Positions 7,854 through 64,000 of a stretch of 64,000 bases of DNA are shown piece by piece. The notes beneath the pieces were generated by a model that saw only the letters and a list, made by a program, of their open reading frames with translations, was not told the DNA's origin and did no database searches. The DNA is taken from NCBI RefSeq assembly GCF_026000115.1, contig NZ_AP026867.1, positions 3,839,716 to 3,903,715 of the forward strand, given 5' to 3'. Within the stretch, counting starts at the first letter, position 1. Every line of letters begins with the position of its first letter. Position numbers and translations under genes: made by a program. The DNA comes from Aureispira anguillae (lineage in GTDB: Bacteria; Bacteroidota; Bacteroidia; Chitinophagales; Saprospiraceae).

Positions 7854-10292
7854 TCAAAACCTAAAATTCATAAACAACGTTGGAGTCAAAGGAATTCCCT
7901 CTAAATACTCGCTCGTATCATCAGGAAAGTTCACAAAATTATTGTATCGAACATTCGCCGTATTTAATAAATTGAGCAATGACAAACCAAAATCAATGTT
8001 CAAGCGATCCATTTCTAACTTATATAAGAAACCAAGATCTAGGCGGCTATAAGGTTTTATATTTTGTTGAGAAGTTAGGTTTTTAGTATTTGGGAAACCG
8101 CTACCATATACATAATTAACAGAAAAAAAGAAAGATTTTACATTAAACATTCCTGCAATTTTAAATTCATGCCGTTGATCGTGTGGTGCCCTATTTAACA
8201 ATTGCGTTTCAAATTTTTCATCCGACTTACTCAATGTATAGGCTGCCCAAATTCGCTGATTCTTAAAATGTGCTGCTACCTTCAAATCCAAACCATAACT
8301 GGCTCCTTCTCCAATTAATGTTGTTAGCCCTCCCGTTGTTTCATCCCTCCCAAACTGAAAGACATTACTTAAAGCTTTATAATAACCTTCTAGCCGACAA
8401 CTCCAAAACCGATATTGACAAGATACCCCTGTCACATAATGCATTGCTTGCGGAACAGGAATCAGTCGATCGTCTGTAACCGACCAATGATAAGTATAAT
8501 TCCTAAAAGGATCAACTAAGGCATTTTCGGTAATAAACTGATTGTAAATCCCATATGCCAAATTGATTTTCCATTGAGGAACTGGTGAAATTAGTACCTC
8601 TATACGGGGTTGTACAAAAGGACGAGCATTCGCTTGAAGCGGCACGTCAATTCTAAGCCCAGGGCGCAATACCAAAAATTTAGACCAACTGATTTCATCC
8701 TTTAGGTAAAGTCCAAATCGCACGCCATGTTCTGCAACACTTGCTAATTCTTTGATGAGACTGTGCTTGATATTAGAACGGTTATAAACCATATAAAGAC
8801 CAGCAGATAGGCTATTGTATTTAAATGTTGGTAAACGGTGATTGGCTCGGATTGTTAATTCTGAAATACCATTGGTTACTTTTTCTGAAAAAACATTTGC
8901 CGTCGAATCTCCTATAAATAGTCCTGTAGTGTATTCTGACTGAAATTGAGAATAAATAACTTTAGCTGTTGTAACTCCTGCTTTTAGCCACCTTTTAGCA
9001 TACTTAATAGAACCTCCTGCCAAATTACTCATCCTTCGTTGGTTAAAATTCAAGCTATTAATAACTTGGCTATCTAACTGGACTTCTTTACGAACGTCTG
9101 AATAATCTAAATCTCCTAGCATAGTAATACTCAAATCATCGCCATTATCAAATCGATGGCTGTATTTTCCCGTTATATCTCCAAAAAGCAAAAAAGGCTC
9201 TAACAGAGGTTGAGAAGAAATTTGTAGTAAATTAGGAAAAACAAGTCTCCCTCCTATTTGCAAATTGGATCGCTGCGTTAATCCTATATTCGCATAACCG
9301 TTAAATAATTGTTGTGTTCCTGTTATTTGATACAATGAAGTATCTATTTGCCCCGACTTGCTAGTTATATTCACCACTCCACCTACTCGGTCTCCAACAT
9401 CTACATTATAGCCTCCTTTTAATACTTCTATATCTTTAATAAACAAGGGGTTGATCGTTCCTATTTGGTCGTTATAGCTACTTGTATTAAAAATAGTAAT
9501 GTCATCAAATAGAATGTTTGTCTGCCCTTTGTAAGATCCCCACAAGATATAATCCTTGGTTTGTTCGCCCGATGCTAAAATTCCAGACTGTAACCTCAAA
9601 AAAGAAAAAAGACTATTGTTGGTACTACCAGGCAAAAAGGGAGTTTGGGTATTATTTAGTTTTGAAAGTCCCGTTTTTTGCTCCGTATTAATAATCTTCA
9701 GTTTTTTAGTGGACAAAACCGTAATCTCTTGCAATTCAGAAATAGAAGGGCGCAAATCTATCCTCAACCGATTGCACGGAGCAATCAAAGTATCTATTGT
9801 AAAATAACCTAAATGGGAAACGGTTAACCTCACTACGCTATCTTTAGAATGGTAGGAAAAATTGCCTTCTACATCTGTAGTAAGATTAATATGATTAATC
9901 TGAATCGCAGCAAAAGGTAAACTTTCGCTATTCGTTCCATCTTTGATTTGTCCTTGATAGCTAAAGGAACGAGCTTTAATCGGTTTTTTAGGGGGTTGGG
10001 GTACTGCTAGAATTGCAAATACACCATTTATTTTTTTATACTTACAATTACATTCCTTTGTTAAATAATTCAATGTTTCAGAGGGAGAATCAAAGGTTCG
10101 ATCTACCGTAATTAAGCATTTACTTAACAATTGCGCATTAAAAGATACTTGAATTCCATAATTGCGATGCAAGTTTTTGAGCAGGCGATTTAGCGGCTTT
10201 GCTTCTGCCTGTACGTAGATTTGCTGTGCATAACTCTGATATGCTACCAACACACTAAATACAACGGCAAATTTAATAGATAATGGACTCAA
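7854..10292 (-). CDS. TonB-dependent outer-membrane receptor with STN signalling domain
   Basis: The 812-aa protein has a signal peptide ending YQSYAQ. An STN (secretin/TonB N-terminal) domain follows at about residues 25-95, then a carboxypeptidase-regulatory-like domain near 110-185. The plug is at roughly 200-310 (DYILWGSYKGQTNILFDDI, VLKGGYNVDVGDRVGGVVNI). The beta-barrel fills the rest and ends in the aromatic LFMNFRF. The STN domain is the part that talks to a FecR-type anti-sigma factor, and fecR and fecI homologues lie directly upstream on the same strand. Ligand unknown: iron chelates are usual for this cassette, but a polymer or cofactor is possible. No surface lipoprotein of the SusD class accompanies it. 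Confidence 0.9.
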   Translation of the reverse strand: MSPLSIKFAVVFSVLVAYQSYAQQIYVQAEAKPLNRLLKNLHRNYGIQVSFNAQLLSKCLITVDRTFDSPSETLNYLTKECNCKYKKINGVFAILAVPQPPKKPIKARSFSYQGQIKDGTNSESLPFAAIQINHINLTTDVEGNFSYHSKDSVVRLTVSHLGYFTIDTLIAPCNRLRIDLRPSISELQEITVLSTKKLKIINTEQKTGLSKLNNTQTPFLPGSTNNSLFSFLRLQSGILASGEQTKDYILWGSYKGQTNILFDDITIFNTSSYNDQIGTINPLFIKDIEVLKGGYNVDVGDRVGGVVNITSKSGQIDTSLYQITGTQQLFNGYANIGLTQRSNLQIGGRLVFPNLLQISSQPLLEPFLLFGDITGKYSHRFDNGDDLSITMLGDLDYSDVRKEVQLDSQVINSLNFNQRRMSNLAGGSIKYAKRWLKAGVTTAKVIYSQFQSEYTTGLFIGDSTANVFSEKVTNGISELTIRANHRLPTFKYNSLSAGLYMVYNRSNIKHSLIKELASVAEHGVRFGLYLKDEISWSKFLVLRPGLRIDVPLQANARPFVQPRIEVLISPVPQWKINLAYGIYNQFITENALVDPFRNYTYHWSVTDDRLIPVPQAMHYVTGVSCQYRFWSCRLEGYYKALSNVFQFGRDETTGGLTTLIGEGASYGLDLKVAAHFKNQRIWAAYTLSKSDEKFETQLLNRAPHDQRHEFKIAGMFNVKSFFFSVNYVYGSGFPNTKNLTSQQNIKPYSRLDLGFLYKLEMDRLNIDFGLSLLNLLNTANVRYNNFVNFPDDTSEYLEGIPLTPTLFMNFRF

Positions 10293-10608
10293 TGGTGTAG
10301 ACTAATTATTTAGATTTTCTATTGTACTAATTGCTGGCAAATCATTTCCTTACTCTAAGAATTAGTGCAACAGACAACCCTTAATTATTTGTATATTAGA
10401 CGTTATCACGAACAAATGTATGTGGCAGGAAATTTATCTTTTCCCCCTACAAAACTCATTCCATTACTTATAAATTTCACCAGTTAATTACGTACTATGT
10501 TTGTGAGTGTGCAGTCTATTTTTTGAATAAACGTTTACAAAATAAAAGTAATCTACAAATCTTATGAATTATACGATATATTTAACCTTTTAATCTAAGT
10601 CCACGATT
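10293..10608. other. Gap between fecR-like gene and TonB receptor
   Basis: There are 316 bases with no ORF and no obvious terminator. Because the receptor is probably expressed under the FecI-like sigma factor, its own promoter may lie here on the minus strand. No consensus could be assigned. Confidence 0.4.
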
Positions 10609-11469
10609 TTAAGAATTGATTTCTACATTGTATAAATTCTCCTGCACCTTAATAAAAGAAAAACCAAAATTAGCACCGATCATTTCCAAGGCAGTGTCTA
10701 TATTTTCTGTTTTGTCAAAAAATCCTCCATACATCAAATCAGGACTAACGACCCCTTCATAATTAATCTTAGCATCATATTGTCGTTCTAATTCTTCTAA
10801 CACTCGAACCAAATTAACATTATCAAAAAGGAATTTATTGTTGAGCCAACCAATGCTTATCGTCGCATCTATAGCCGTTTGTTTTTTCAGAACATCCTTT
10901 TGTAAGAGTCCCAATTCACTAGGTGTCAAGATAAGAGACTGATCGTCTTTAGTGGTGTGTACACCAACTTTCCCTGTTTTACAAAAGACAACATAAGCCG
11001 TATCCCTTGCATAAATATTAAAACTAGTTCCTAATACTTCTGTGTATCCCAATTCTGAAGCCACAATAAAACTACTCCCCTTTTCTACTTCAAAAAATGC
11101 CTCTCCCTCTAACGATACCTGACGTTGGAAAGACCACCAATAAGGCGCAAAACTAATCGTGGATGCTGCATTTAATTGTACAGTAGAATTATCAGGCAAA
11201 GTATACGCCAAATGCCTTCCCCTTTCACAGGTTATTGTTGTGGTATAAAAACGCATAAAAGCGACGCTAAATGTCATTATCAAAACTGCTGCCACCGCTA
11301 TTCTTGTCCAAATAAGCGGCACAATTTTACGAGGTGGTATCGCTTCTATTTTTTTTGTCATTTCATCCCAAACCGCTTTTTTATCTCGATTATAAGGAAT
11401 CTCTAAATTTTCGAAAAACTTCAGTTGTTCTTCCAATTCAGATGACGATTCATGTTTATGATCTTTCAT
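10609..11469 (-). CDS. FecR-family anti-sigma factor
   Basis: The 286-aa protein has a cytoplasmic N-terminal segment of ~55 residues and one membrane helix (VPLIWTRIAVAAVLIMTF). The periplasmic FecR domain follows (LPDNSTVQLNAASTISFAPY, VSLEGEAFFEVEKGSSFIVA, TEVLGTSFNIYA). At the C-terminus is the phylum-typical extension (NKFLFDNVNLVRVLEELERQ) that often contacts the receptor STN domain. It receives the ligand signal from the receptor and releases or activates the sigma factor encoded 12 bases upstream. Start: ATG at 11469, just after the sigma gene stop. Family and role are clear; the signal is not. Confidence 0.92.
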   Translation of the reverse strand: MKDHKHESSSELEEQLKFFENLEIPYNRDKKAVWDEMTKKIEAIPPRKIVPLIWTRIAVAAVLIMTFSVAFMRFYTTTITCERGRHLAYTLPDNSTVQLNAASTISFAPYWWSFQRQVSLEGEAFFEVEKGSSFIVASELGYTEVLGTSFNIYARDTAYVVFCKTGKVGVHTTKDDQSLILTPSELGLLQKDVLKKQTAIDATISIGWLNNKFLFDNVNLVRVLEELERQYDAKINYEGVVSPDLMYGGFFDKTENIDTALEMIGANFGFSFIKVQENLYNVEINS

Positions 11470-11481
11470 TAATGGTTGGTT

Positions 11482-12003
11482 TTATAAGACAATAAAATAA
11501 GTACATATAATAAGTAGGATTAACTGAAGTTCTATTCTAAGTTTGCCCAAAGCCTTGCTCATTCTCTTCTCTACAGCCTTAACACTTATGGTTAGGCACT
11601 CTGCGATTTCTTTATACGTTAGTCCATTCATTCTGTTCATCAAAAAAACAGCTCGTTGTTTTTCGGGCAGATTAGCAAGTGCTTTTTCATATCCTTTTTT
11701 TAATTCTTCATACTCTATATCATCATCCACCCTTATGGACTTAAAAGTCAAAGGTAAGGATTGTAAGTAATCATTTTGTAATTTTACCCTCCTAGTATAG
11801 GATATAAATAAATCTCCTGCCATTTTGTACAATAAGCCCTTCGTTCGTCCTTGCTCATATTTGATATTTTTCTCCCAGACTCGTAAAAATACATCTTGCG
11901 CCAAATCAGTTGCCAATTCGGTATTCCCTGATCGATAATAAAGATAGTTTCGTATTGCATCAAAATGCTGATCAAAACATTCTTGAAATTCTTTCTTTGT
12001 CAA
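11482..12003 (-). CDS. ECF sigma factor, FecI-like
   Basis: The 173-aa protein has sigma70 region 2 near residues 10-70 (FDAIRNYLYYRSGNTELATD, DLAQDVFLRVW) and region 4 near 105-155 (LPEKQRAVFLMNRMNGLTYK, EIAECLTISVKAVEKRMSKA). The C-terminus is an unusually hydrophobic tail (LILLIICTYFIVL), seen in many Bacteroidota sigma factors paired with FecR. It directs RNA polymerase to a small regulon, probably the TonB receptor downstream. First gene of the sigma/anti-sigma/receptor set. Confidence 0.93.
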   Translation of the reverse strand: MTKKEFQECFDQHFDAIRNYLYYRSGNTELATDLAQDVFLRVWEKNIKYEQGRTKGLLYKMAGDLFISYTRRVKLQNDYLQSLPLTFKSIRVDDDIEYEELKKGYEKALANLPEKQRAVFLMNRMNGLTYKEIAECLTISVKAVEKRMSKALGKLRIELQLILLIICTYFIVL

Positions 12004-17779: not shown

Positions 17780-19123
17780 ATGGCAACCAATAACCCTAAT
17801 ATACAACAGCGCTCTACACAACAGCAACCTATTATATTTCAACAAGTTTCTCCTTCATCATTGCAAGTTTCCAAAAGCAAAAAAAATATTCCTGTAAAAT
17901 CCTTAAGTTGGAGTAAGTCGTCTGAGACACCCTTTCAGACACAAGGAAGAACAGTAGATATAGAGGCCCAAGCCAAAGCTTTGTTCACAGAGGTAAAAGA
18001 AAATTTATCCAACCTCCGTCAATTGCACAATGCCCTAATGACGGCTGAATACTTAAACATTCACTACAAAAGCAAACACAAGAATAAAACTGAAGAATAT
18101 CAAAAACTACTCAATAGCATTAATGAACTTAGCCGTAACGATGTTGACCAAAAGACCATCAAAGAATTAAAAATCATCTCAGATGCATTGACCTTTGACA
18201 GAGCTAATATTGATGCTATTTTTCCAAAAATTATTGCATTCTACAATTCCATCTACTTGGATAATTCAATGGAAAATAAAGTGAAGCAAATTGGGTATGA
18301 AGATTTTCATGCAGATGCGCTAGCAGCACTAAACCAAATGAATGCATTGGAGAGTGTTTTAGAAGAAGAAAACAAAGAAACAACAGATGGGAAAATGACC
18401 ATTCAAAGAGCCATTCAAATTATTAATACTGCCAATGACATGCAAGAAAATGTACAACGCATTCTTGCCCTAAAGGCGCAGAGTTTGGAGCGGGCTAAAA
18501 AAACAACTATCAACGTTTTAACAGGAGTAGCTACCACGATTCTTTCGTTTGGAATTTTGGTTTTTATCCTGTACAAGCAAGGGGTTGAATGGGAAACAGT
18601 TCGTGACTATCCTATTATTGGTATTCCTTTAGGGATTGGAATTTGGAGTTTTATTGGAAGTTTTGCCGCTATGTTAACCCAATTCTATAAAAAACCTGTT
18701 TACGATTTTGGAAACACGCTCAAATGGGTGATTATTCGCCCTGTATTGGGGGTAGTGATGGGAGCAGCTATTTATCTTGCGCTTTTTAGTTTGGTACTCA
18801 CAGGAAAGAATCAAAATGAATTATTGCCTTTATTGGTTGCCTTTTTTGTAGGTTATAGCGATACGTTTACCTTTGACATTCTTAATAGTACACAACGTGT
18901 CATTGCTAACTTATTTAGCAATCCTTCTGAGGATAGCATCAAAAATAATCCTGCGCAACCCGTTTATGTTGTAGCACCCAATAATACTCAAGCAACTCCT
19001 GTGGTTCCGAGTGCTACCGCTACTACTACCAATACTAACTCTGCTGCTATTACTACAGCAGATAATATACCTACGCCTATGGATGACAATCACCTCTTGG
19101 GTCTAAATGAAGATGAAAAATAA
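17780..19123 (+). CDS. Unknown membrane protein with N-terminal helical domain
   Basis: The 447-aa protein has a Gln/Ser-rich N-terminal tail and a long predicted helical region at about residues 55-240 (AQAKALFTEVKENLSNLRQL, ALNQMNALESVLEEENKETT). Four hydrophobic segments follow between about 245 and 365: TINVLTGVATTILSFGILVF, YPIIGIPLGIGIWSFIGSFA, WVIIRPVLGVVMGAAIYLAL and LLPLLVAFFVGYSDTF. The C-terminal ~70 residues are a low-complexity Ala/Thr/Asn tail. There is no signal peptide, so the helical domain is probably cytoplasmic. I do not recognise a family. A perfect terminator follows, and the next genes are convergent. Confidence 0.7.
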   Translation: MATNNPNIQQRSTQQQPIIFQQVSPSSLQVSKSKKNIPVKSLSWSKSSETPFQTQGRTVDIEAQAKALFTEVKENLSNLRQLHNALMTAEYLNIHYKSKHKNKTEEYQKLLNSINELSRNDVDQKTIKELKIISDALTFDRANIDAIFPKIIAFYNSIYLDNSMENKVKQIGYEDFHADALAALNQMNALESVLEEENKETTDGKMTIQRAIQIINTANDMQENVQRILALKAQSLERAKKTTINVLTGVATTILSFGILVFILYKQGVEWETVRDYPIIGIPLGIGIWSFIGSFAAMLTQFYKKPVYDFGNTLKWVIIRPVLGVVMGAAIYLALFSLVLTGKNQNELLPLLVAFFVGYSDTFTFDILNSTQRVIANLFSNPSEDSIKNNPAQPVYVVAPNNTQATPVVPSATATTTNTNSAAITTADNIPTPMDDNHLLGLNEDEK

Positions 19124-19144
19124 GAAGGTAAATTTATACTTAGC

Positions 19145-19182
19145 AATAGCGCTTTGGAGGTCTCCAAAGCGCTATTTTTTTG
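19145..19182. terminator. Bidirectional rho-independent terminator
   Basis: A perfect 15-bp stem (19145-19159 with 19162-19176) with a two-base loop and a T run lies between the convergent membrane-protein gene and the LRR genes. Confidence 0.9.
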
Positions 19183-19188
19183 TTAGGA

Positions 19189-20406
19189 TTATAAGATAAC
19201 AATCTCGCAATTGGGCAAATGCTTTTTTATCTGTGCTCTAATTTTTTGTTGATCTTCTGAAAGCACTATTTTTTTTAAATTTTTTAAGGTTTTAAAACCT
19301 TCTGGTAAGTCTTTGATTCTAGAACCTTTAAGGTTTAAATATTCCAACTGTTGTAAATCGCCAATATTGAGTGGTAATGCTTCAAAAGAAGCATTGTTTA
19401 AATCAAGAGATTTTAAGTGGTGGAGTTTGCCTACAGCTTTAGATAATTTTAGTCCTCCAAGATGGCTTAAATTCAAAGACTCTAAATATTCCAATTTCTC
19501 TAGGCTTCTAGGAATGATATAGATATGTGTATGACTTAAATCTAAGTATTTTAATTGCTCAAAGCCTTGAATGTTGTCGGGAAGTGTTTCAATTGCATTA
19601 TGACTCAAATCTAAAGACTCCAGTTGCTTTAATTTCCCCAAATGCATTGGAAAAGTTATCAAAGCATTGTTGCTGAGATTTAGTGTTTTTAACTCCTTTA
19701 ATGCCACAGGGTCTAAGCCCTTTACAAAAGCATCTGTGTATAAATTTCCTTGCAACTCTAAGCTTTTTAATTGGGTAAGTTGGTTAATTTCTTGTGGAAA
19801 AGCTTCTAAATCTTTATCAAAAATAGCTTGTATGTATTGCATGTGTTCAGGAGTTCTGGGGAAATGGATGGCTTTACTATTCCAACTACTCCTATCTTTT
19901 AATAGTTGAATATAATTAATATCCTTAGACAAGGTAGTTGCCTTGGATGCAGCTATGCTACTGAGTTGTTGAGAACGATTGGTATCCAAATATTCCTGAT
20001 AAGCATAAGCTTCTTCTTTAGCCAATCTTTCTACATAATTAATATCCCAAATTGGAGCAGTTGTAGCCATTTGATGCAGCCCATTATTGGCCAAGGAAAG
20101 CTCCCTAAGATGGGTTAGCTTTCCTAAAAAAGAAGGCACTTTGCAAAGTTTATTGTTGCTTAAATCTAGGCGTTTTAATTTTTTTAAAGTGCTTAGTTTA
20201 TCAGGGAACACTTCTATACTTGTTCCTGAAATGCTTAACTGTTTTAATTCTTTTTGTGCAAAAACTATTTCAGGAACAACATGCACTTCCTTCCCCTCTA
20301 AGATATAGGATTGAGGGGCACAACTACTCAGCCCCAATAAAACAGCACAATAAAAGGATAAAAGAAAGTTTCTTTTTTTCTTAATAATTAACTCTTTACA
20401 TTTCAT
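19189..20406 (-). CDS. Leucine-rich-repeat lipoprotein (copy A)
   Basis: The 405-aa protein carries a signal peptide with a lipobox-like LLGLSSC, so it is probably a lipid-anchored envelope protein. Repeats of the ~23-residue type LxxLxxLdLSxNxLxxLPxxl start near residue 50 (LKKLKRLDLSNNKLCKVPSF) and resume near residue 205 through the end. Between them, at about 110-200, sits a stretch without LRR pattern (INYVERLAKEEAYAYQEYLD). LRR solenoids bind proteins or other ligands. The start overlaps the stop of copy B by 11 bases, so the two are translationally coupled. The opening after the Cys is similar in both, indicating duplication. Confidence 0.85.
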   Translation of the reverse strand: MKCKELIIKKKRNFLLSFYCAVLLGLSSCAPQSYILEGKEVHVVPEIVFAQKELKQLSISGTSIEVFPDKLSTLKKLKRLDLSNNKLCKVPSFLGKLTHLRELSLANNGLHQMATTAPIWDINYVERLAKEEAYAYQEYLDTNRSQQLSSIAASKATTLSKDINYIQLLKDRSSWNSKAIHFPRTPEHMQYIQAIFDKDLEAFPQEINQLTQLKSLELQGNLYTDAFVKGLDPVALKELKTLNLSNNALITFPMHLGKLKQLESLDLSHNAIETLPDNIQGFEQLKYLDLSHTHIYIIPRSLEKLEYLESLNLSHLGGLKLSKAVGKLHHLKSLDLNNASFEALPLNIGDLQQLEYLNLKGSRIKDLPEGFKTLKNLKKIVLSEDQQKIRAQIKKHLPNCEIVIL

Positions 20407-52677: not shown

Positions 52678-53472
52678 TTATCCTACAATCCTCCAATCAT
52701 TTGCATAACAAGTTGCCCGTTCTTCCCGACAAAAACCCAATAGCGTTAGCCCAAATTGTTTGGCGTATTCAACAGCCAAGGAAGAAGGAGCCGAAACAGC
52801 AGCCAAAATAGGTATTTGAGCACAAAAGACCTTAGAGACAATCTCATAAGAAATACGTCCGCTCACCAAAATACCTGTTGCTTTATCCAATTTTTTTTTA
52901 TTAATTAAATCGCCAATTACTTTATCCACAGCATTATGCCGCCCAATGTCTTCCATCAGGCTCAATAATTCCCCCGTTTCAGAAATAGCCGCCGCTGCAT
53001 GTGAGCCTCCTGAACGTAAAAAATCATTTTGCAAACGACTCATTGTCTCAAAAGATTGGTACAGCCGATCGATGCTGAGTTTTGCGTTTTTAGTCAAACA
53101 ATTTTTAAACGTTGAAGTCGTATCGAGCTCTTGCCTACCACAAATTCCACAGGAAGAAACAGACAATAAACTTCTAGTACTTTTTATACCTGCCCCCAAG
53201 AGCTTTTTATCCAACGATACATTGGCAATAGTAGTAATCGCATTTTTTTTTCGATACTGAATGGGCAGGTCTATTGTTTGATCTCGCAAAACATCTTCCG
53301 AAAACAACAAACCACGGATCAACGCATTGTCGTTGCCAGGACTGCGCATGGTTACTGTAAACGGAAAATTATTGATGGTAATTTGTAAAACTTCTTCTAT
53401 TGTTAGCACATCTTCTACCCTTGCACTTTTGCGTTTTTGGTATTTTTGCCCTTCATATTCTAATACTGCCAT
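52678..53472 (-). CDS. fdhD: FdhD, formate dehydrogenase accessory sulfurtransferase
   Basis: The 264-aa protein carries the FdhD core: LTIEEVLQITINNFPFTVTM, RSPGNDNALIRGLLFSEDVL, and the reactive-cysteine motif SSCGICGRQELD (Cys108, Cys111). GGSHAAAAISETGELLSLME, EDIGRHNAVDKVIGDLI and ILVSGRISYEIVSKVF follow. FdhD takes sulfur from a cysteine desulfurase and places it on the bis-MGD molybdenum cofactor of formate dehydrogenase, needed for activity. Its likely client is the FdhF/YdeP-type protein at 47118. It is transcribed from the other strand, so the two are not one operon. Confidence 0.95.
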   Translation of the reverse strand: MAVLEYEGQKYQKRKSARVEDVLTIEEVLQITINNFPFTVTMRSPGNDNALIRGLLFSEDVLRDQTIDLPIQYRKKNAITTIANVSLDKKLLGAGIKSTRSLLSVSSCGICGRQELDTTSTFKNCLTKNAKLSIDRLYQSFETMSRLQNDFLRSGGSHAAAAISETGELLSLMEDIGRHNAVDKVIGDLINKKKLDKATGILVSGRISYEIVSKVFCAQIPILAAVSAPSSLAVEYAKQFGLTLLGFCREERATCYANDWRIVG

Positions 53473-55029: not shown

Positions 55030-55149
55030 TGTATCTATTTCTGCTTTTAGCTGATTAATAACTTGTTTTTTTAACATTAAAAATGTTAATGTTCCTTGAT
55101 TCTAAAAGTAACCCTTTTGTTAGACCTGTTTTGGTATATGGGGATAAAA

Positions 55150-55187
55150 AAGAAGCCATCAAAAACGACTGTTTTTGATGGCTTCTC
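55150..55187 (-). terminator. Terminator after the beta-propeller gene
   Basis: A perfect 15-bp stem (55152-55166 with 55171-55185) with a 4-base loop follows the stop at 55212 on the minus strand. The tail toward lower coordinates reads TTTTTTATCCC on the minus strand. Confidence 0.85.
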
Positions 55188-55211
55188 TAAGAACATCTTA
55201 TTTTTTAAAAT

Positions 55212-56522
55212 CTATTGCTTTACAAATTGTTGTGTTCTCATTACCCCTTCCTTATTGACAACTGCCAAAAAGTATACGCCAGCAGGCAAATGAGCTACAT
55301 CAAGGGTTGTTGTTGAGGCGGTAGATGTTTGTGCCAATACTTGCTGACCTACTTGATTAATCACCAATAGGCTTACTTCTTCAGCAGCTTCTAAATTTAC
55401 GGTCAAAATAGTTTGTACAGGATTAGGCATAATACTATAATTTAGTTCATCCTTGCCTGCCAACTGTACCGTACCAGAAATGGTATGAGAAACAATAGCC
55501 AACGCTTCTGGTGAAAATCCAACTTGGAACATTCCAACACTATCTCCATTCATGTCGTAAATTCTACCTTTGTTTTGCGTTTGGTCAGAATAATTAATAT
55601 GACTCACACAGAAATTATTATTAAAGGTATCCATAACAAAGGCAAAACTACCCGAAATATTAACAAGATTAGCCGTTACGATAGCGTTGGTCGATAAGTT
55701 ATAACTTCCTACCCCACTATCATAAGGAAAATACCAAACACCTGCTCCTTTTGTAAAGGCAGTTGGTCCATAAGCAGCTGGTTTTAGATCCATTCCCCCC
55801 GCTGCTGCTTGTGTAGATTTAGCCAAGGTTTGTGTATTATAACTAGAAATAGTGTTGCTGGAACCATTAATAGCATAGACCATATCCCCCTCTGCAACTA
55901 AGCGCCCGATTTCTTCTCCAGTAGTAGATAAGGTATCATAACGCACTAGCGAAAAGTTTGTTAGATCAACAACAGCAAGGTATCCAAGCGTATCTCCCCA
56001 ACCTACTGTTTTATCGTTATTTTGAGCAATATAAGCATAGTCTCCTATTACTACAAAATCATCTGCTGGCTTCGTCACTTGTGGAATACTATCCACTAAT
56101 GACAAATCGGAAGTATTAAAGATGTGAAAATGGTGATTGTATGCACCTGTCCAGCCCCAAGGCTCATACCAGTTGCCCACCAATAAATGACCGCCATGAA
56201 CCGCCAATTTAACGGTACTAGCTCCGCCAAAAGCATTAGCAGCTACTTTGGTCTTAGTCGTCCAATCATACTTTACAATACTATCCTGCGCTGCAACATA
56301 AGCATATTGACCATCAACCACAATATCTTGAATAGAGGTGGTTCCTATCGTTCCCATGTTGATGGCAGTACCTGAGTTTAGATCTTCAATAGTTGTATTG
56401 GCATTCGTTACACCAAAAATACCACCATTAACAACAATAATCGCTTCATTTTGAGCCATAATAGTTGTGATAGTTCCTAACAATAAGCCAATTAAAAATG
56501 TAAATTTTACTAAGGATTGCAT
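55212..56522 (-). CDS. T9SS-sorted beta-propeller protein under a cobalamin riboswitch (BtuG-like)
   Basis: The 436-aa protein has a signal peptide (FLIGLLLGTITTIMAQ). The propeller-like blades include AIIVVNGGIFGVTNANTTIE, SIQDIVVDGQYAYVAAQDSI, VKLAVHGGHLLVGNWYEPWG, DFVVIGDYAYIAQNNDK and GRLVAEGDMVYAINGSS. A T9SS sorting domain ends it (SIMPNPVQTILTVNL ... LPAGVYFLAVVNKEG ... FVKQ). BtuG-type proteins of gut Bacteroides are surface lipoprotein propellers of the DUF5074 kind that capture cobalamin. This one has the same fold plan but is attached through T9SS instead of lipid. A cobalamin riboswitch directly upstream supports a vitamin-B12 role. Binding itself is inference. Confidence 0.82.
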   Translation of the reverse strand: MQSLVKFTFLIGLLLGTITTIMAQNEAIIVVNGGIFGVTNANTTIEDLNSGTAINMGTIGTTSIQDIVVDGQYAYVAAQDSIVKYDWTTKTKVAANAFGGASTVKLAVHGGHLLVGNWYEPWGWTGAYNHHFHIFNTSDLSLVDSIPQVTKPADDFVVIGDYAYIAQNNDKTVGWGDTLGYLAVVDLTNFSLVRYDTLSTTGEEIGRLVAEGDMVYAINGSSNTISSYNTQTLAKSTQAAAGGMDLKPAAYGPTAFTKGAGVWYFPYDSGVGSYNLSTNAIVTANLVNISGSFAFVMDTFNNNFCVSHINYSDQTQNKGRIYDMNGDSVGMFQVGFSPEALAIVSHTISGTVQLAGKDELNYSIMPNPVQTILTVNLEAAEEVSLLVINQVGQQVLAQTSTASTTTLDVAHLPAGVYFLAVVNKEGVMRTQQFVKQ

Positions 56523-56639
56523 AGCAATTAAATTTAAATGAAAAAAAATTTTACTATGCTAACAGAAAAGAAGCTAGCCCTATCCTGAAAAAGATATATC
56601 TAGCCCAATAGAGGAAGGCAAAAGACTCCTATACTGGTT

Positions 56640-56805
56640 GCTTCAATCCACGAAAGCATTGCCAATAATGACATAGGCAGGTCTCCTGACTCATAGTCTA
56701 TTGATAAAACTACTTACAGTTGCGGGACAGCTCAAGACTTACACTTGATTCCCTTTTAATTCTAATTCTAACCTAAAAGTTAAAATCAAAAACCTACATC
56801 TCTAA
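56640..56805 (-). ncRNA. Cobalamin (B12) riboswitch
   Basis: Read on the minus strand, the region carries the conserved core of cobalamin riboswitches in order: GGGAATC (near 56757-56763), GAGCTGTCCCGCAACTGTAAG (B12-box core, 56712-56732), a variable arm, and GAGTCAGGAGACCTGCCT (56675-56692). The downstream GCAATGCTTTCGTGGATTGA is also typical. It lies about 120 bases before the start of the propeller gene and beyond the terminator of the gene at 56895, so it must control the propeller gene. In this class, bound adenosylcobalamin or a related form lowers expression. Confidence 0.93.
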
Positions 56806-56819
56806 AGTTGCCGCAAAAC

Positions 56820-56863
56820 TAAAGAACCTTTTGATTTTTTGTGCATCAAAAGGTTCTTTTTTT
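56820..56863 (-). terminator. Terminator of the arrestin-like gene
   Basis: AAAGAACCTTTTGAT (56821-56835) and ATCAAAAGGTTCTTT (56845-56859) are exact complements around a 9-base loop with T runs. It lies past the stop at 56895 and separates that gene from the riboswitch. Confidence 0.85.
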
Positions 56864-58705: not shown

Positions 58706-60265
58706 TTATAAAATTAAGAATTTTTTGTGGTAAACTCCTGTAGAAGTTGACAAGGCCAAAATATAAGTTCCTCTTGTTAAGCTGGCTACATTCAACTTAA
58801 ATTGATTGACTCCTTCTTGGATTGATGAAGCAGGATAAGTTTCAAGTACTCGACCATCTACGGCTAATAATTTAAAAGTTCCATTTTCAATATTGGCAGC
58901 AGCTACTTCTACCGTTATTTCACTCGCACTTGCAGGATTAGGATAAATGGCTAATTCTACTTTTGATTGATTGTCGGTTAATTTTTGCAAGTTTGTGAGC
59001 TGCCCAAATTTAAACATATAAAAAGTAGATAGATCAGAACAAGTATAATAATCATTTAATGGTTTTATGCGCCAAGCATAGGTGCTGTTAAGGTTTAAAG
59101 AATTCACTAAAATATTATAAGAAGTTCCCGAAACGGTCAATTTAGCAATTGGACTAGTCGTATTCGCAGCAATTCCTCCAATCGTATTAAAGATTTCAAG
59201 GTAATAACTTGTAGCCCCAGGAACAGGATTCCAAGACAAAGTTACAAACCCACCTGATGCAGCAATTGTTTGTCCAGCCAATGGGCTAATTGGAGAAAAT
59301 TGAGCTCCGCTCAAGCTAGTTGCCGTAGAAGCTGGTGCCGAAAAATTAGTCCAATTTCTAGAAATAATATCTGCCAAAACAGCATTCTGTTGATCGTTTG
59401 TAAACGTTCTTCGGCAAACATAAGCGAAATAAGACATGAGATTAGAATCGCTAGGAGAAATAATAATACTATCTGGATCTCTAGCCACTAAGCCAGTAGC
59501 AGAATAAGGGCAAGATTCTCTAGTTGTATAATAATCTGCTGGCGTATCACAAAAACCATCTGCTGCGGTATTACAATTGGCAGTAGGCCCAGTACGAGCC
59601 TCGTATTCTACCAGTTTACCTCCGATATAAACAGGTGCTTTTGTTCCTCCATACAATGCTTGGTAATCTTTATTTTCCCAGCCATAAAACGTATGTGGTA
59701 GCGTAAAAAAGTGCCCAATTTCATGAGAACAAGTATTCGTTGTAGCACTAACTTGTGCATTCAACATAAATACAAAATCGTTGATACCTCCAGAATAAAA
59801 ACTAGCTCTTGGATTGTTCACCGATCTTCCTACGTAGATATTCAGTGTATTCGGAACTTTATTGTTGCGCATGGCCATTTTAGCACCATTCGAAAAGGCG
59901 TTATCGTGTATCGACTGCAAATCTAGATAAGTAATAGGGCTGTTTAAATAAAACTGAATATTCTGACTCGCATAATCATTATTTAGGTCACAAAACATTG
60001 CATAAATACTCAGTTCACTAGTATATCCATTTCCATTATCATCTCCAACATTACGAATGGTAACAGGAATCCAAGTAATGGTACGACGCTGTTGAAGGGC
60101 TTCAATAGCATTAGGGTGAACTGTTGCCCGATTATCCAACATTCGTTGTTTAACGATTCCTCCTTCTATTAAGTCAAGCCCGCATTCTAAAGAGTGTTGA
60201 ACCTGCCCTTGCAAAGTTTTTCCGATGCATAAAATAGTCAAAATGCCAAAAAGTACTGCTTTCAT
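58706..60265 (-). CDS. M43-type (pappalysin-like) metalloprotease, T9SS-secreted, copy 1
   Basis: The 519-aa protein has a signal peptide and a prodomain-like N-terminal part. The metalloprotease domain has SHEIGHFFTLPHTFYGWENK (HExxHxxxxxH zinc site with Glu catalytic) and a later SNLMSYFAYVC (Met-turn). CDTPADYY and Cys-rich segments are shared by its paralogues. A fibronectin-like module follows (SWNPVPGATSYYLEIF ... YAWRIKPLND), then a T9SS sorting domain (AIYPNPASASEITVEV ... LTRGTYILAL). It is a secreted or surface-anchored protease with protein targets unknown. Two further copies stand behind it on the same strand. Confidence 0.9.
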   Translation of the reverse strand: MKAVLFGILTILCIGKTLQGQVQHSLECGLDLIEGGIVKQRMLDNRATVHPNAIEALQQRRTITWIPVTIRNVGDDNGNGYTSELSIYAMFCDLNNDYASQNIQFYLNSPITYLDLQSIHDNAFSNGAKMAMRNNKVPNTLNIYVGRSVNNPRASFYSGGINDFVFMLNAQVSATTNTCSHEIGHFFTLPHTFYGWENKDYQALYGGTKAPVYIGGKLVEYEARTGPTANCNTAADGFCDTPADYYTTRESCPYSATGLVARDPDSIIISPSDSNLMSYFAYVCRRTFTNDQQNAVLADIISRNWTNFSAPASTATSLSGAQFSPISPLAGQTIAASGGFVTLSWNPVPGATSYYLEIFNTIGGIAANTTSPIAKLTVSGTSYNILVNSLNLNSTYAWRIKPLNDYYTCSDLSTFYMFKFGQLTNLQKLTDNQSKVELAIYPNPASASEITVEVAAANIENGTFKLLAVDGRVLETYPASSIQEGVNQFKLNVASLTRGTYILALSTSTGVYHKKFLIL

Positions 60266-60656
60266 AATTGTTTTTTCCGCTTTATAATTAGATGGTTTTA
60301 GGATTTTTAGCCCCCCTTTTTATTTTTCGTTCTTTGACAACTCTGCCACGACCACGTAGCCCCCAACTTGCTGGCTCACGAGTGATTACGGCGTATCTAA
60401 GCTAATCGTGTAGAAATTTTAATTAACAGGCTTAATTATGCCATTTGGGCATTAGATTTTAGAAATTGGGAATAAGAAACGATTAGAGTTTTTAACTATT
60501 TAGGGTAGAAAACCGATTAGACCTACAATATCCTATATTTTATACGCTACTGCAAGATCTTTTAATATCTAGTGAACAGTTCTAATGCTAAGAAACACCC
60601 TCCCATAAGCCATGGAGGATGTTTCTTAATAATATTTAATCTATAGTTCTTTATTG
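60266..60656. other. Intergenic region between proteases
   Basis: There are 391 bases. About 60336-60420 has short matches to the palindromic element (GTTCTTTGACA, GGCTCACG, TCGTGT). A terminator for the next protease lies at 60590-60632. The promoter of copy 1 should be near 60300 on the minus strand. Confidence 0.4.
60590..60632 (-). terminator. Terminator of protease copy 2
   Basis: AAGAAACA (60590-60597) pairs with TGTTTCTT (60620-60627), with an inner CTCC/GGAG pairing, past the stop at 60657. Confidence 0.6.
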
Positions 60657-62213
60657 TTATCGTTGAATCACAAATTTTTGTTGCACCGCCCCTCGCTCAG
60701 TAGCTACAACCGCAACATACATTCCATTAGGAATATCCCCTGCTGGAATTTGGATCAGGTTATCTCCTTGATGAATGGTTTGTTTGGTTATTGCAATCAT
60801 TTCTTTGCCATTCATCGCATAAATGCGAATTGACCCGACTAGTTCCTCCGCAGTATAAATGGCCAAAGGAATATCAGTAGCTGTAATTGGATTGTTGTTA
60901 ACTTTTAAATTCATTTGCTTTTCAATAGACAAATCTTTTATAGCAGTTGTTGTATTGGTCTCAAATTTATTAAACGCAGAAACAGCCGCACAAGTTGAAT
61001 ATTGATTTAAAGCCTTTACTCTCCAAGCATAATGCGTCCCAACGGTTAAACCAGCCGTAGACAAATCATAATGACTATTTCCACTTGTCACCAAGCCTTT
61101 AAAAATCACATTGGTATAATCTGGCACCCAAAACCCTGGTAATTTAGTTCCATAAACTTCCAAATAATACCAAGTTGCTCCAGGAACGTTAGACCAATCT
61201 AAACGAAGCGTAGATCCAGCAATAGAGGCCAAGCCATTGTTCATTGGTGCAGTTGCAGATGCTACTCCTGTGACAGTTGCACTGCTAGGAGGCGTTGTTG
61301 ATACCCAAGTGGTAGCAGCAACATCTACAGCAATGGCTGTTTTTTGTTCTTGTGAGAACCCCGTTTGACACATATCATTATAATAAGACATGATATTTCC
61401 CTCATCAGGGTCTAGCGTTGCTCCAGTAGTATCTAGCGTTGCAGGCGTAAAATTACAGATTTGGATAGCAGCAGTAGAATGATAATCGGCCTCCGTATCA
61501 CAGAATCCATCCGCAGCAACGGCACAGTTGGCTCCTGCCCCTCTAGTCACCAACTCGGTATATTCCCCATTAACCATAATAGGGGCACGAACACCATTGT
61601 ATAAGACCTCTGCATCTTCTCCTTCCCAACCATAAAACGTATGTGGAATTTGAAAATAATGAGCGATTTCGTGCGCTTCTGTTTTTGCTGTGCTAGACAA
61701 CATCGGTTGTTGTAAAAACACAAAATCTCCATTCGGATCGTAATAACTCAAATACCCCGAAGCAGGATAATAGGTAGATCGACCAATATAAATGTTTAAA
61801 GTATTGGGAACCTTTTGTTGCTGCATTTCTAGTTTTGCTTGAAATGTATTTGAGTTAGCATCCAAAGCATTAGAAGTCATATTGATAATTTGACCATAAA
61901 TATAAAATTGAATATTTTGATCTGCATAAATCGCATTTAAACCACAGATAGAGTTTAGGATAACATCTACCTCCGTTCTTCCTTCTCCCGAAGTATTGGC
62001 AGCATTATGAATGGTTATAGGCACATAAGTTGTCGTTCTAGAAGCCATCAAACCAGCCACTTCTTGTCTAGAATACAACTGGCGATTGTTCATTAAATGT
62101 TGCTTAATCATTGCTCCTTCCGCAAGCCCTACCCCACATTTAAATTGTTCCTGCGCTTGCAAAAACATGGTACACAAAAGGGCAATGGCACATGATATGA
62201 GTACTTTTTTCAT
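60657..62213 (-). CDS. M43-type metalloprotease, T9SS-secreted, copy 2
   Basis: The 518-aa protein has a signal peptide (VLISCAIALLCTMFLQAQ). It shares the N-terminal region YVPITIHNAANTSGEGRTEV, the zinc motif AHEIAHYFQIPHTFYGWEGE and the Met-turn NIMSYYNDMC with the other copies. The fibronectin-like module (RLDWSNVPGATWYYLEVYG) and a C-terminal beta-sandwich domain (SIRIYAMNGKEMIAITKQTI ... IPNGMYVAVVATERG ... KFVIQR) follow. The third zinc His is kept, but the Gly of HExxHxxG is replaced by Gln, as in several divergent M43 members. Activity is likely. Confidence 0.9.
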   Translation of the reverse strand: MKKVLISCAIALLCTMFLQAQEQFKCGVGLAEGAMIKQHLMNNRQLYSRQEVAGLMASRTTTYVPITIHNAANTSGEGRTEVDVILNSICGLNAIYADQNIQFYIYGQIINMTSNALDANSNTFQAKLEMQQQKVPNTLNIYIGRSTYYPASGYLSYYDPNGDFVFLQQPMLSSTAKTEAHEIAHYFQIPHTFYGWEGEDAEVLYNGVRAPIMVNGEYTELVTRGAGANCAVAADGFCDTEADYHSTAAIQICNFTPATLDTTGATLDPDEGNIMSYYNDMCQTGFSQEQKTAIAVDVAATTWVSTTPPSSATVTGVASATAPMNNGLASIAGSTLRLDWSNVPGATWYYLEVYGTKLPGFWVPDYTNVIFKGLVTSGNSHYDLSTAGLTVGTHYAWRVKALNQYSTCAAVSAFNKFETNTTTAIKDLSIEKQMNLKVNNNPITATDIPLAIYTAEELVGSIRIYAMNGKEMIAITKQTIHQGDNLIQIPAGDIPNGMYVAVVATERGAVQQKFVIQR

Positions 62214-62643
62214 ACTGTTTTGTTTTGAATTTTGGTAATGGTCTATACATCATAACCTTACTGTTCCGACTGAATAAGAAAAAGAGTTGTTGTTTTTATC
62301 AATAGTTTTAAGTTGTATATTTCAAAAAAACATACAACTATTCTATTTTAATATTTTCCTTATACTACTGAGGGACAACCAATTAAGAGTTATAAATATA
62401 CTAAATAGCTCAAGATTAAGAAAAAAAGAGCATTCTTTTTCATCTAAAGTGAAAAAATATAGACTTCGTGAGGGATAAAATTGATGTGGAATACCTACCA
62501 AAAATAAGTAATTCTAAGAGAGCATGCAAGTAATTGGCTTGTTTTGACAAAAGTTATTTGATTTCTTTTACAAAAAAAGAGGATACCCTTCTTTGAGGCA
62601 TCCTCTAATTTATGCGTTTCTGCAATAGCTATTTTGTCAACGG
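62214..62643. other. Intergenic region between protease copies 2 and 3
   Basis: There are 430 bases. A short plus-strand frame (62287-62478) has no features of a real gene. A terminator-like hairpin belonging to copy 3 is near 62579-62607. Otherwise nothing is recognised. Confidence 0.45.
62572..62610 (-). terminator. Terminator of protease copy 3
   Basis: AGAGGAT (62579-62585) pairs with ATCCTCT (62601-62607), with inner CCTT/GAGG pairing, located past the stop at 62644 and followed by T residues on the minus strand. Confidence 0.65.
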
Positions 62644-64000
62644 CTATCGTTGTAATATTATTTTTTGTTGTAACTGTCCTCTTTCTGTGAATAAAACGGC
62701 AATATACATTCCATTTGCTAAGCCATCAGCGGGCAACTGAACCAAGCTCTCGCCCTCATTAATTAGTTGCTTCGTCAAATCCAACGCTATTCTACCATCC
62801 ATTCCATAAATTCTAATTGATCCAATCACCTCCTCTGCTGAGTAAATAGACAAAGGAATAAAAGAAGTAGTAATTGGATTTGAATTTACAGTAAATGTCA
62901 TTTGCTTTTCAATTGGCAAGTCTTTTAGGTTGGTTGCAACAGAAGTTACTGCCTCAAAAGCAGAATAACTAGAAACGGTAGCACAAGTAGATACCGAATT
63001 TAGCGCTTTTACACGCCAAGCATAACGGCTACCAACCACCAAATCATCTGTTGGCAAATCAAAATAAGGATTCGCAGAATAAATAATTCCCTGATGAATA
63101 GGGCTATTGGTATTGGGTACCCACAAACCAAAAAACTGCATGGTATAAACCTCTAAATAATACATTGTTGCCCCTGTTACAGGCGTCCATTCTAAACGCA
63201 CGGTGCTATTATTGATGTCTCCCAATTGTCCATTGTTTAGGGGAGAAACTGCTGTAGGTATCCCTGTTACTGTTGCCGTATTGGTGGGCGTATTGGTTAC
63301 CCAAGTACGACTTGCAATGTCCATTGCAATAGCATTCTTTTGTTCTGTCGAAAAATTAGTTACACAAGCATCAAAAGCATAAGACATAATATTCGATTCA
63401 TCTGGATCGATTGCATTCCCATTAGGATCACTAACCGTTGGGATATAAGGGCAGTTTTTTCGATCAGAATAATAATCGGCTGGCGTATCGCAAAACTTGT
63501 CAGCAGTTGTATGGCAATTCGCCAAAGGTCCTGTGCGATCAGCACGTTCTATCCAAGAAAATTGTGGCACATTCTGTCCCCCATAAAGTGCTTCAACATC
63601 CTTGTTTTCCCATCCATAAAAGGTATGAGGCAGCGTAAAAAAGTGCCCAATTTCGTGCGCTTCTGTTTTAGCTTCACTGGTCAACATTTGCTTGAGTAAA
63701 AAAACAAAGTCACCAAACCCATCGTACCAACTCGCTACAGGGTTATTAATAGAAGACCCAATAATTAGATTCAAGGTATTTGGCACTCGATAAGTCAACA
63801 TATGCCCACGAGCCGTTGGAGTTCCTGCATTGTTATAAATATAGGTACTCTCTCGATTTCGAATCGTTCCATGAATAAAAAACTGTACATTCTGATCTGC
63901 GTAAATTGCATTTAGACCACATAAAAAACCTAATATAGTCTGTTCACTGGTTCGACCTATTCCACTCGTATCTGCTACATTAGTGATGGTTAACGGAATG
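62644..64000 (-). CDS. M43-type metalloprotease, T9SS-secreted, copy 3 (5' end outside window)
   Basis: The frame stays open to the window edge. The first residues visible (IPLTITNVADTSGIGRTSEQ, then LGFLCGLNAIYADQNVQFFI) align with residues near 50-110 of copy 2, so the first ATG inside the window (63801) is internal. The zinc site AHEIGHFFTLPHTFYGWENK and Met-turn NIMSYAFDACV are intact. The fibronectin-like module (RLEWTPVTGATMYYLEVYT) and sorting-type C-terminus (SIRIYGMDGRIALDLTKQLI ... LANGMYIAVLFTERG ... KIILQR) closely match copy 2. Signal peptide and start lie beyond 64000. Confidence 0.88.
   Translation of the reverse strand, partial: IPLTITNVADTSGIGRTSEQTILGFLCGLNAIYADQNVQFFIHGTIRNRESTYIYNNAGTPTARGHMLTYRVPNTLNLIIGSSINNPVASWYDGFGDFVFLLKQMLTSEAKTEAHEIGHFFTLPHTFYGWENKDVEALYGGQNVPQFSWIERADRTGPLANCHTTADKFCDTPADYYSDRKNCPYIPTVSDPNGNAIDPDESNIMSYAFDACVTNFSTEQKNAIAMDIASRTWVTNTPTNTATVTGIPTAVSPLNNGQLGDINNSTVRLEWTPVTGATMYYLEVYTMQFFGLWVPNTNSPIHQGIIYSANPYFDLPTDDLVVGSRYAWRVKALNSVSTCATVSSYSAFEAVTSVATNLKDLPIEKQMTFTVNSNPITTSFIPLSIYSAEEVIGSIRIYGMDGRIALDLTKQLINEGESLVQLPADGLANGMYIAVLFTERGQLQQKIILQR

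Follow-up and report, generated by a model that had tools for sequence, protein, structure and literature searches.

What is a cobalamin riboswitch doing in front of a gene whose product carries the sorting signal of T9SS cargo? The question is raised by a locus of Aureispira anguillae lying on the minus strand of the DNA analysed here (64,000 nucleotides; hereafter, the window), where an earlier note had recognised both elements and had proposed a comparison with BtuG. In the accessible portions of the relevant papers, the biology of BtuG rests on lipoproteins of gut Bacteroides (PMC6143338, PMC10404256), and one of these papers describes the protein as confined to Bacteroidetes, a lipobox-type cysteine being present in almost every one of 114 homologues (PMC6143338). 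Among the full-text literature matches listed, most subscription papers lying outside this coverage, there is no account of a T9SS-borne relative of BtuG and no description of a type A T9SS cargo protein as part of B12 uptake; the single paper naming both BtuG and T9SS (PMC12578637) concerns, in its accessible portion, the BAM complex. Genomes and loci of relatives are cited below by G and L numbers.

The riboswitch and its leader

The B12 riboswitch that the earlier note had placed at 56640-56805 of the minus strand is confirmed by a covariance-model search (cmscan), in which the cobalamin riboswitch aptamer (RF00174) is matched at 56659-56812 (-), the ends differing by 19 and 7 nt. The match covers the full length of the model (positions 1-189) with 84.2 bits (E 2.8e-19) against a gathering score of 31.5 bits, and it is the sole Rfam match at the gathering threshold within the window; 136 nt separate the aptamer from the ATG of the propeller gene. 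Directly after the aptamer, at 56639-56658 (-), the genus alignment reveals a hairpin, a candidate P13/L13 of the expression platform, which in the genus reads tgcttt-CGTGGATT-gaagca; base pairing of its loop, CGUGGA, with UCCCG in loop L5 of the aptamer is possible if one U is bulged out, and an L5-L13 contact is a known feature of the cobalamin riboswitch. By eye, the hairpin is unchanged in seven of the eight rows of the genus alignment and shifted in the eighth, while the core columns of the aptamer are invariant; taken by itself, the window copy folds weakly (z -0.81).

The leaders of relatives were compared in a set of 51, made up of the window and of the 50 loci, out of 71, in which the core pattern was found. 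A hairpin with a GGGA, GGGG, GUGGA or GCGGA loop lies within 75 nt in 36 of the 51, against 10% of letter-shuffled leaders, a contrast to be read with the fact that this set of loops was picked after the leaders had been inspected; 31 of the 36 hairpins start at most 20 nt from the core, seven of the 36 leaders belong to Aureispira, and the remaining 15 of the 51 are without the hairpin. Many leaders outside Aureispira carry hairpins with a CGGGA loop, the complement of UCCCG in L5, on stems of differing sequence. Compared with RF00174 leaders elsewhere, the Aureispira element thus has in common the full-length match, the conserved core and the candidate P13/L13 hairpin, but its loop is CGUGGA (CGCGGA in G007), whereas most others with a hairpin have CGGGA. 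The GUGGA loop was also considered as a class-wide feature and rejected, since 6 of 50 leaders have it, compared with 7% of shuffles.

A terminator separating aptamer and gene was detected neither by a pattern scan nor in the fold of the leader (z -0.78), and an action of the riboswitch on translation is therefore favoured. Two hairpins flank the unit: a strong one with a T run, just 3' of the gene at 55149-55188 (-) (-25.5 kcal/mol, z -8.25), is a candidate terminator, and another between the upstream gene and the riboswitch, at 56821-56859 (-) (-18.7 kcal/mol, z -4.99), is a candidate terminator of the upstream gene. The propeller gene would accordingly be transcribed alone, the conditional being due to the pattern scan for terminators, which listed neither hairpin.

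The propeller protein and its sorting signals

The gene that follows, at 55212-56522 (-), is one open frame of 436 codons for a T9SS-sorted, BtuG-related propeller protein, as judged from Pfam, NCBIfam and profile homology; the earlier description of its product, which gave it a T9SS tail and a propeller-like domain behind a signal peptide, holds in all three parts. The signal peptide, assigned by eye to residues 1-23 (56454-56522, -), with predicted cleavage before Gln24, ends in IMAQ, which is a signal-peptidase-I pattern where, again by eye, no lipobox cysteine is present; many relatives have similar leaders. The propeller domain, about residues 27-345 (55488-56444, -), is delimited by a profile alignment to 8baz and 3dsm covering profile positions 3-303 of 307, and the LVIVD repeat (PF08309) is matched in the protein with 29.6 bits (Pfam cut-off 20.2). 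The type A T9SS C-terminal sorting domain occupies residues 364-436 (55215-55433, -), being identified by both PF18962 (Por_Secre_tail, residues 364-427, 42.6 bits, Pfam cut-off 27) and TIGR04183 (46.9 bits, NCBIfam cut-off 23); a sorting domain above the curated cut-off is what the protein shares with type A T9SS cargo in general. The host has SprA (TIGR04189, 2410 bits), the protein on which the presence of a T9SS was judged, and a search of its genome with the window protein gave 63 T9SS cargo matches, the protein itself included, the other 62 being confined to the C-terminal part.

Pfam gave no match to DUF5074, the domain of BtuG, in the window protein at E <= 1, and none to DUF4465. The latter is the domain of BtuH and BtuJ, which form a separate family; they are accessory B12-binding proteins of riboswitch-regulated Bacteroides loci (PMC13398666, PMC12751083, in their accessible portions). 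Proteins with LVIVD repeats from the same genome had been considered as a control family and were dropped, a whole-genome search with LVIVD having matched nothing at E <= 0.001, the window gene itself included.

Relationship to BtuG

When the window protein alone was compared with the PDB, seven weak matches were obtained, the best of them to the T9SS tail and none to BtuG. With a 14-row profile, BtuG-type chains take ranks 1-9 of 11 (E 2.5e-7 to 2.1e-6), the best aligned stretch being the C-terminal blade only; with a 67-row profile, twelve BtuG-type chains take ranks 2-13 of 28 (best E 1.2e-11), ranks 2-10 covering positions 3-303 of 307 and ranks 11-13 covering 112-302, while rank 1 is 1l0q, a generic YVTN propeller. 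The 67-row alignment omits fragments and contig-end copies (L036, L043, L127, L128, L129) and L031, a near-duplicate of L030. Among the chains, 3dsm, 8bai, 8bmy, 8okv, 8p97/8p98, 8ptd and 8ptf are named as BtuG or as B12-binding surface lipoproteins; 8baz, 8bn0, 8bmx, 8puj and 8blw, with similar scores, we take to be BtuG as well. An alignment of profiles (hhalign) of the T9SS propellers and of DUF5074 lipoproteins from the same operons gave a probability of 99.4 and E 1.2e-21 over 285 columns, the lipoprotein side consisting of five of the 14 used in the tree. In that tree, a quick IQ-TREE run on 67 T9SS and 14 lipoprotein rows, the two groups are split on one branch (SH-aLRT 100), with four long rows flagged. 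At the level of sequence, then, the window propeller is a remote homologue of BtuG, and the kinship with BtuG suggested for this vitamin-linked protein stands on both profile comparisons.

The residues of BtuG2 to which a role is ascribed in the accessible part of PMC10404256 are a B12-clamping loop, Asn54-Thr64, and the pocket residues Trp194, Tyr316 and Tyr335; a single offset of 45 relative to 8baz, as aligned, accommodates all of them, and Trp272 and Tyr239 were left out of the mapping. The columns of the clamping loop correspond to an N-[EG]-G motif (Asn in 58 and Gly in 65 of 67 rows), which is among the most conserved of the family and which, by column counts, falls on N-G-G at residues 32-34 of the window protein. 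The column of Tyr335 holds Tyr or Phe in 67 of 67 rows and that of Tyr316 in 47 of 67, while that of Trp194 holds Asn in 54 of 67. The corrinoid site of BtuG thus appears, from these alignments, to be partly kept in the T9SS propellers.

Structure prediction adds little to this picture. The AlphaFold models are of low confidence, with a mean pLDDT of 53.7 for the full protein and 56.8 for the propeller domain; among the best 50 Foldseek matches, propellers of many kinds are found, with BtuG-type chains at rank 45 for one low-confidence model and at ranks 9, 12, 19, 26, 29-31, 38 and 44 for the other. As BamB and other propellers outrank the BtuG chains with these models, the latter are read as propeller-like and no more; the propeller assignment made earlier is therefore upheld by sequence families and homology, but not by the predicted models.

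Compared with BtuG (BtuG1-3 of Bacteroides; DUF5074, PF16819; PDB 3DSM, 8BAI and 8OKV among others), the T9SS propellers share remote homology over the propeller, the N-[EG]-G motif at the B12-clamping loop, and a setting in riboswitch-controlled loci in which relatives have a TonB receptor or BtuF-, BtuC- and BtuD-like genes as neighbours. They differ in forming a branch of their own, in the column of Trp194, and in carrying a signal-peptidase-I leader and a T9SS tail where BtuG has a lipobox and a lipoprotein export signal; moreover, no TonB receptor is encoded beside the propeller in this window, unlike BtuG next to btuB.

Distribution and linkage to the riboswitch

With the propeller alone as query, matches at E <= 1e-5 are found in 17 of 100 genomes (own and relatives), among them all nine of the genus in the searched set; in Aureispira sp. 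CCB-QB1 (NZ_JHBV01000037.1) the relative is 78% identical in the best segment. An RF00174 element lies upstream of the orthologue, on the same strand, in all eight other loci of the genus (L030-L037), and a riboswitch is present in six of eight more distant loci; G041, of the order-level set, has no cobalamin riboswitch in its genome, and in G065, where none was detected, the gene starts at a contig end.

At the level of the class, the 14-row profile matches 84 of 395 genomes at E <= 1e-5; those followed were the 56 other genomes with E <= 1e-20, weaker matches being left out. In 46 of the 56 the distance from riboswitch to propeller domain is 131-460 nt, and in three more the riboswitch lies 2.1-3.2 kb before the domain; none is found upstream in seven. 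Two of these seven (G144, G166) are at contig ends, and in G275 a riboswitch is present on another contig; for the other four, G262 (L088) and G159, G195 and G227 (L119, L120, L124), there is no riboswitch match in the genome, nor in the locus at E <= 1; there may be another regulator, or a riboswitch too divergent for the model. Although 344 of 395 genomes of the class have a cobalamin riboswitch, there are few of them in each genome (from one to at least six), so that their adjacency to the propeller is, by a rough reckoning made without a formal control, far beyond chance. The T9SS tail recurs as well: PF18962 is matched at E <= 0.001 in 63 of 68 C-termini, the window included, in a set that omits L036, L043, L128, L129 and L031.

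Neighbouring genes in relatives

According to the earlier note, the propeller stood alone, with no btuB or transporter genes within the window, and would represent a different architecture for B12 scavenging. For the window the absence is borne out, tblastn with 12 queries of TonB-receptor, BtuF, BtuC, ABC-ATPase and DUF5074 type giving no match at E <= 0.01; it does not extend to the genome, which has a TonB receptor, a BtuF/BtuC-like pair and a DUF5074 lipoprotein (see below), and a stand-alone architecture is not supported, in view of relatives in which the propeller adjoins either a TonB receptor and a lipoprotein BtuG or BtuF-, BtuC- and BtuD-like genes. Indeed, a TonB receptor is encoded within about 5.5 kb in 15 of the 56 relatives and a DUF5074 lipoprotein, within the same distance, in 12. 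In L040 the best NCBIfam match of the receptor is TonB-B12, with 111 bits, below the cut-off of 599.7, and the next gene encodes DUF5074. In three order-level loci (L042, L044, L045), riboswitch and propeller are followed by genes of Peripla_BP_2, FecCD and ATPase type (BtuF-, BtuC- and BtuD-like); three of these nine genes were assigned by Pfam (the binding proteins of L042 and L045 and the permease of L045) and the rest by similarity to L045, the identity of the BtuD-like ABC-ATPase being assigned by eye. These families also serve other ligands. The models for BtuF, BtuC and BtuD were seeded from one locus and missed the Peripla_BP_2 proteins of L084 and L105, so that the neighbour counts based on them are lower bounds. 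Other propellers are followed by DUF6580, Peripla_BP_2 or Diphthami_syn_2 proteins, or by genes that look unrelated.

Because the riboswitch-led loci of relatives also hold the TonB receptor and the DUF5074 lipoprotein, the T9SS propeller is in these shared loci an addition to the lipoprotein BtuG and does not replace it; replacement was considered and is rejected for at least 12 of the 56 relatives, where a DUF5074 lipoprotein adjoins. The window locus is thus the Aureispira representative of a broader sister branch of BtuG that is sorted by T9SS; members of this branch mostly occur with cobalamin riboswitches, and some of them with the customary genes for B12 uptake.

Some further genes recur in these loci. 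A protein of about 320 aa with a T9SS tail is encoded between propeller and TonB receptor in L077 (9198-10160), L084 (8933-9895) and L131 (8981-9961); in the two that were scanned (L077, L131) no other Pfam domain is present, and its identification with a known B12 binder was rejected, since among the PDB matches listed only the sorting-domain part was matched. It is a candidate for a new component of the B12 regulon. In L086 (8997-9521) and L105 (5594-6166) the gene immediately after the propeller encodes a DUF6580 membrane protein, with similar-looking genes, by eye, in L111 and L116; an FGE-sulfatase domain, in proteins of about 495 aa, is repeatedly met in the same position (by Pfam in L040, 8805-10298, and L130, 3-1484; others by similarity).

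Other B12-related genes of the host

In the host genome (7.79 Mb, three contigs) two cobalamin riboswitches were found. The second, at C1:2299029-2299236, heads an operon comprising a TonB receptor and corrin-synthesis genes, among which CbiD, CobM/CbiF, CobJ/CbiH, CobI/CbiL, CbiE, CbiT, uroporphyrinogen-III methyltransferase and BluB score above the NCBIfam cut-offs, precorrin-6A reductase and others scoring below; because of this operon, synthesis of corrinoids is predicted for the host. The receptor scores 74.9 bits with the hemoglobin/transferrin-type model and a lower 37.5 bits with the TonB-B12 model, neither value reaching the cut-off. A like arrangement has been described in Flavobacterium psychrophilum, where a riboswitch precedes a TonB receptor by the cob genes (PMC9723704); in the accessible portion of that paper no T9SS propeller is mentioned.

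A BtuF/BtuC-like pair lies at C1:2377395-2379220, away from the propeller locus; its BtuF-like protein shares 29% identity, over 392 residues, with that of the G091 locus, whose order is riboswitch, propeller and BtuF-C-D-like genes. The one DUF5074 (BtuG-type) protein of the host, with a lipobox by eye, is encoded at C1:481327-482385 (L140:9328-10386), its DUF5074 match spanning C1:481417-482331, and a DUF5074 protein is found in eight of the nine genomes of the genus. The notion of an Aureispira lacking B12-type transport genes is rejected on account of the BtuF/BtuC-like pair and this lipoprotein. The lipoprotein gene stands apart from both riboswitches, beside genes that by eye look like those of molybdopterin synthesis.

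Possible function of the propeller

The B12 reading put forward in the earlier note is likely, and the function that we consider probable for the gene is the capture of corrinoids at the cell surface by a B12-repressed, T9SS-delivered protein. At low cellular adenosylcobalamin the riboswitch would leave the message on; repression, export and ligand binding are steps that we infer, together with the partner to which the ligand would be handed over and the state, anchored or released, of the protein. What speaks for surface capture is the combination of the riboswitch, the sorting signals, the homology with BtuG and the recurrence in B12-regulon loci; caution is advised by the unconserved Trp194, the poor models, the failure of the single sequence to match BtuG, the top rank of 1l0q and the seven of 56 relatives devoid of an upstream riboswitch. 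Further points against it are the host receptor, nearer to the hemoglobin/transferrin type, and the predicted corrinoid synthesis, owing to which scavenging need not be the only source for the host.

The same synthesis operon, with its BluB and TonB receptor, implies that the regulon covers synthesis as well as uptake, and it lends some weight to the idea that the propeller binds a related ligand (corrin-ring precursors, cobinamide, a cobalt complex or another tetrapyrrole) and serves to recover intermediates, not the completed vitamin. Crystals of BtuG2 itself were obtained with cobinamide, according to the accessible part of PMC10404256, and the pocket tryptophan is not conserved; we nevertheless hold this unlikely, as relatives adjoin lipoprotein BtuG or BtuF-, BtuC- and BtuD-like genes and the clamp loop aligns with a highly conserved motif. 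The similarity to LVIVD and YVTN-type propellers, the many T9SS cargo proteins of the genome and models too poor for placing a pocket would also suit a generic T9SS propeller, with a role in adhesion or as a scaffold, that is B12-repressed and binds no corrinoid; such a protein would hardly be expected behind one of only two cobalamin riboswitches found in the genome, in a family that closely follows one in 46 of 56 other genomes and has N- and C-terminal motifs in common with BtuG, and we regard this explanation as distinctly improbable. It is very improbable indeed that the riboswitch is a decayed or passenger element whose link to the gene carries no regulation: the aptamer of the congener G002 scores only 44.1 bits, neither a terminator nor a marked fold was found in the leader, and six relatives (G262, G159, G195, G227, G275, G041) have no nearby riboswitch and no contig end to account for it, but the invariant core of the genus and the recurrent hairpin, able to form the L5-L13 contact, argue against decay.

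Starting from surface capture, a broader and quite tentative proposal can be advanced, to which we give somewhat less than an even chance: the T9SS propellers would be a separately evolved BtuG-type line that has left the role of outer-membrane lid, its members acting as T9SS-exported corrinoid catchers, surface-bound or released, that feed BtuB-BtuG or other TonB receptors, as part of the B12 regulon in many Bacteroidia, a predicted producer of B12 among them. Were this so, a T9SS-borne sister branch of BtuG, with a riboswitch upstream in 49 of the 56 strong matches, would tie the vitamin economy of Bacteroidota to T9SS and would assign a role to a group of proteins for which the sorting domain is all that is known; it would also raise the question of why some organisms keep the lipoprotein and the T9SS version in one operon.

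Other features of the loci

In L076 (G100:C1), behind a riboswitch, the open frame at locus positions 8681-11548 encodes 955 aa with two successive propeller domains, matched by the profile at G100:C1:17824-18753 and 19054-20019. In the window, the propeller locus is followed by an FdhD gene (52678-53472) with no evident link to B12, and an FdhD-like gene, by eye, also follows the propeller in L030, L032, L033, L034 and L035; an SGNH-type T9SS protein is encoded between the two in the window and in L030. On the other side, at 58706-63801, the window encodes, in tandem, three proteins that by eye are related to one another and have T9SS-like ends and an HExxH motif resembling that of zinc proteases, and similar genes sit, again by eye, upstream of the propeller in several congeners.
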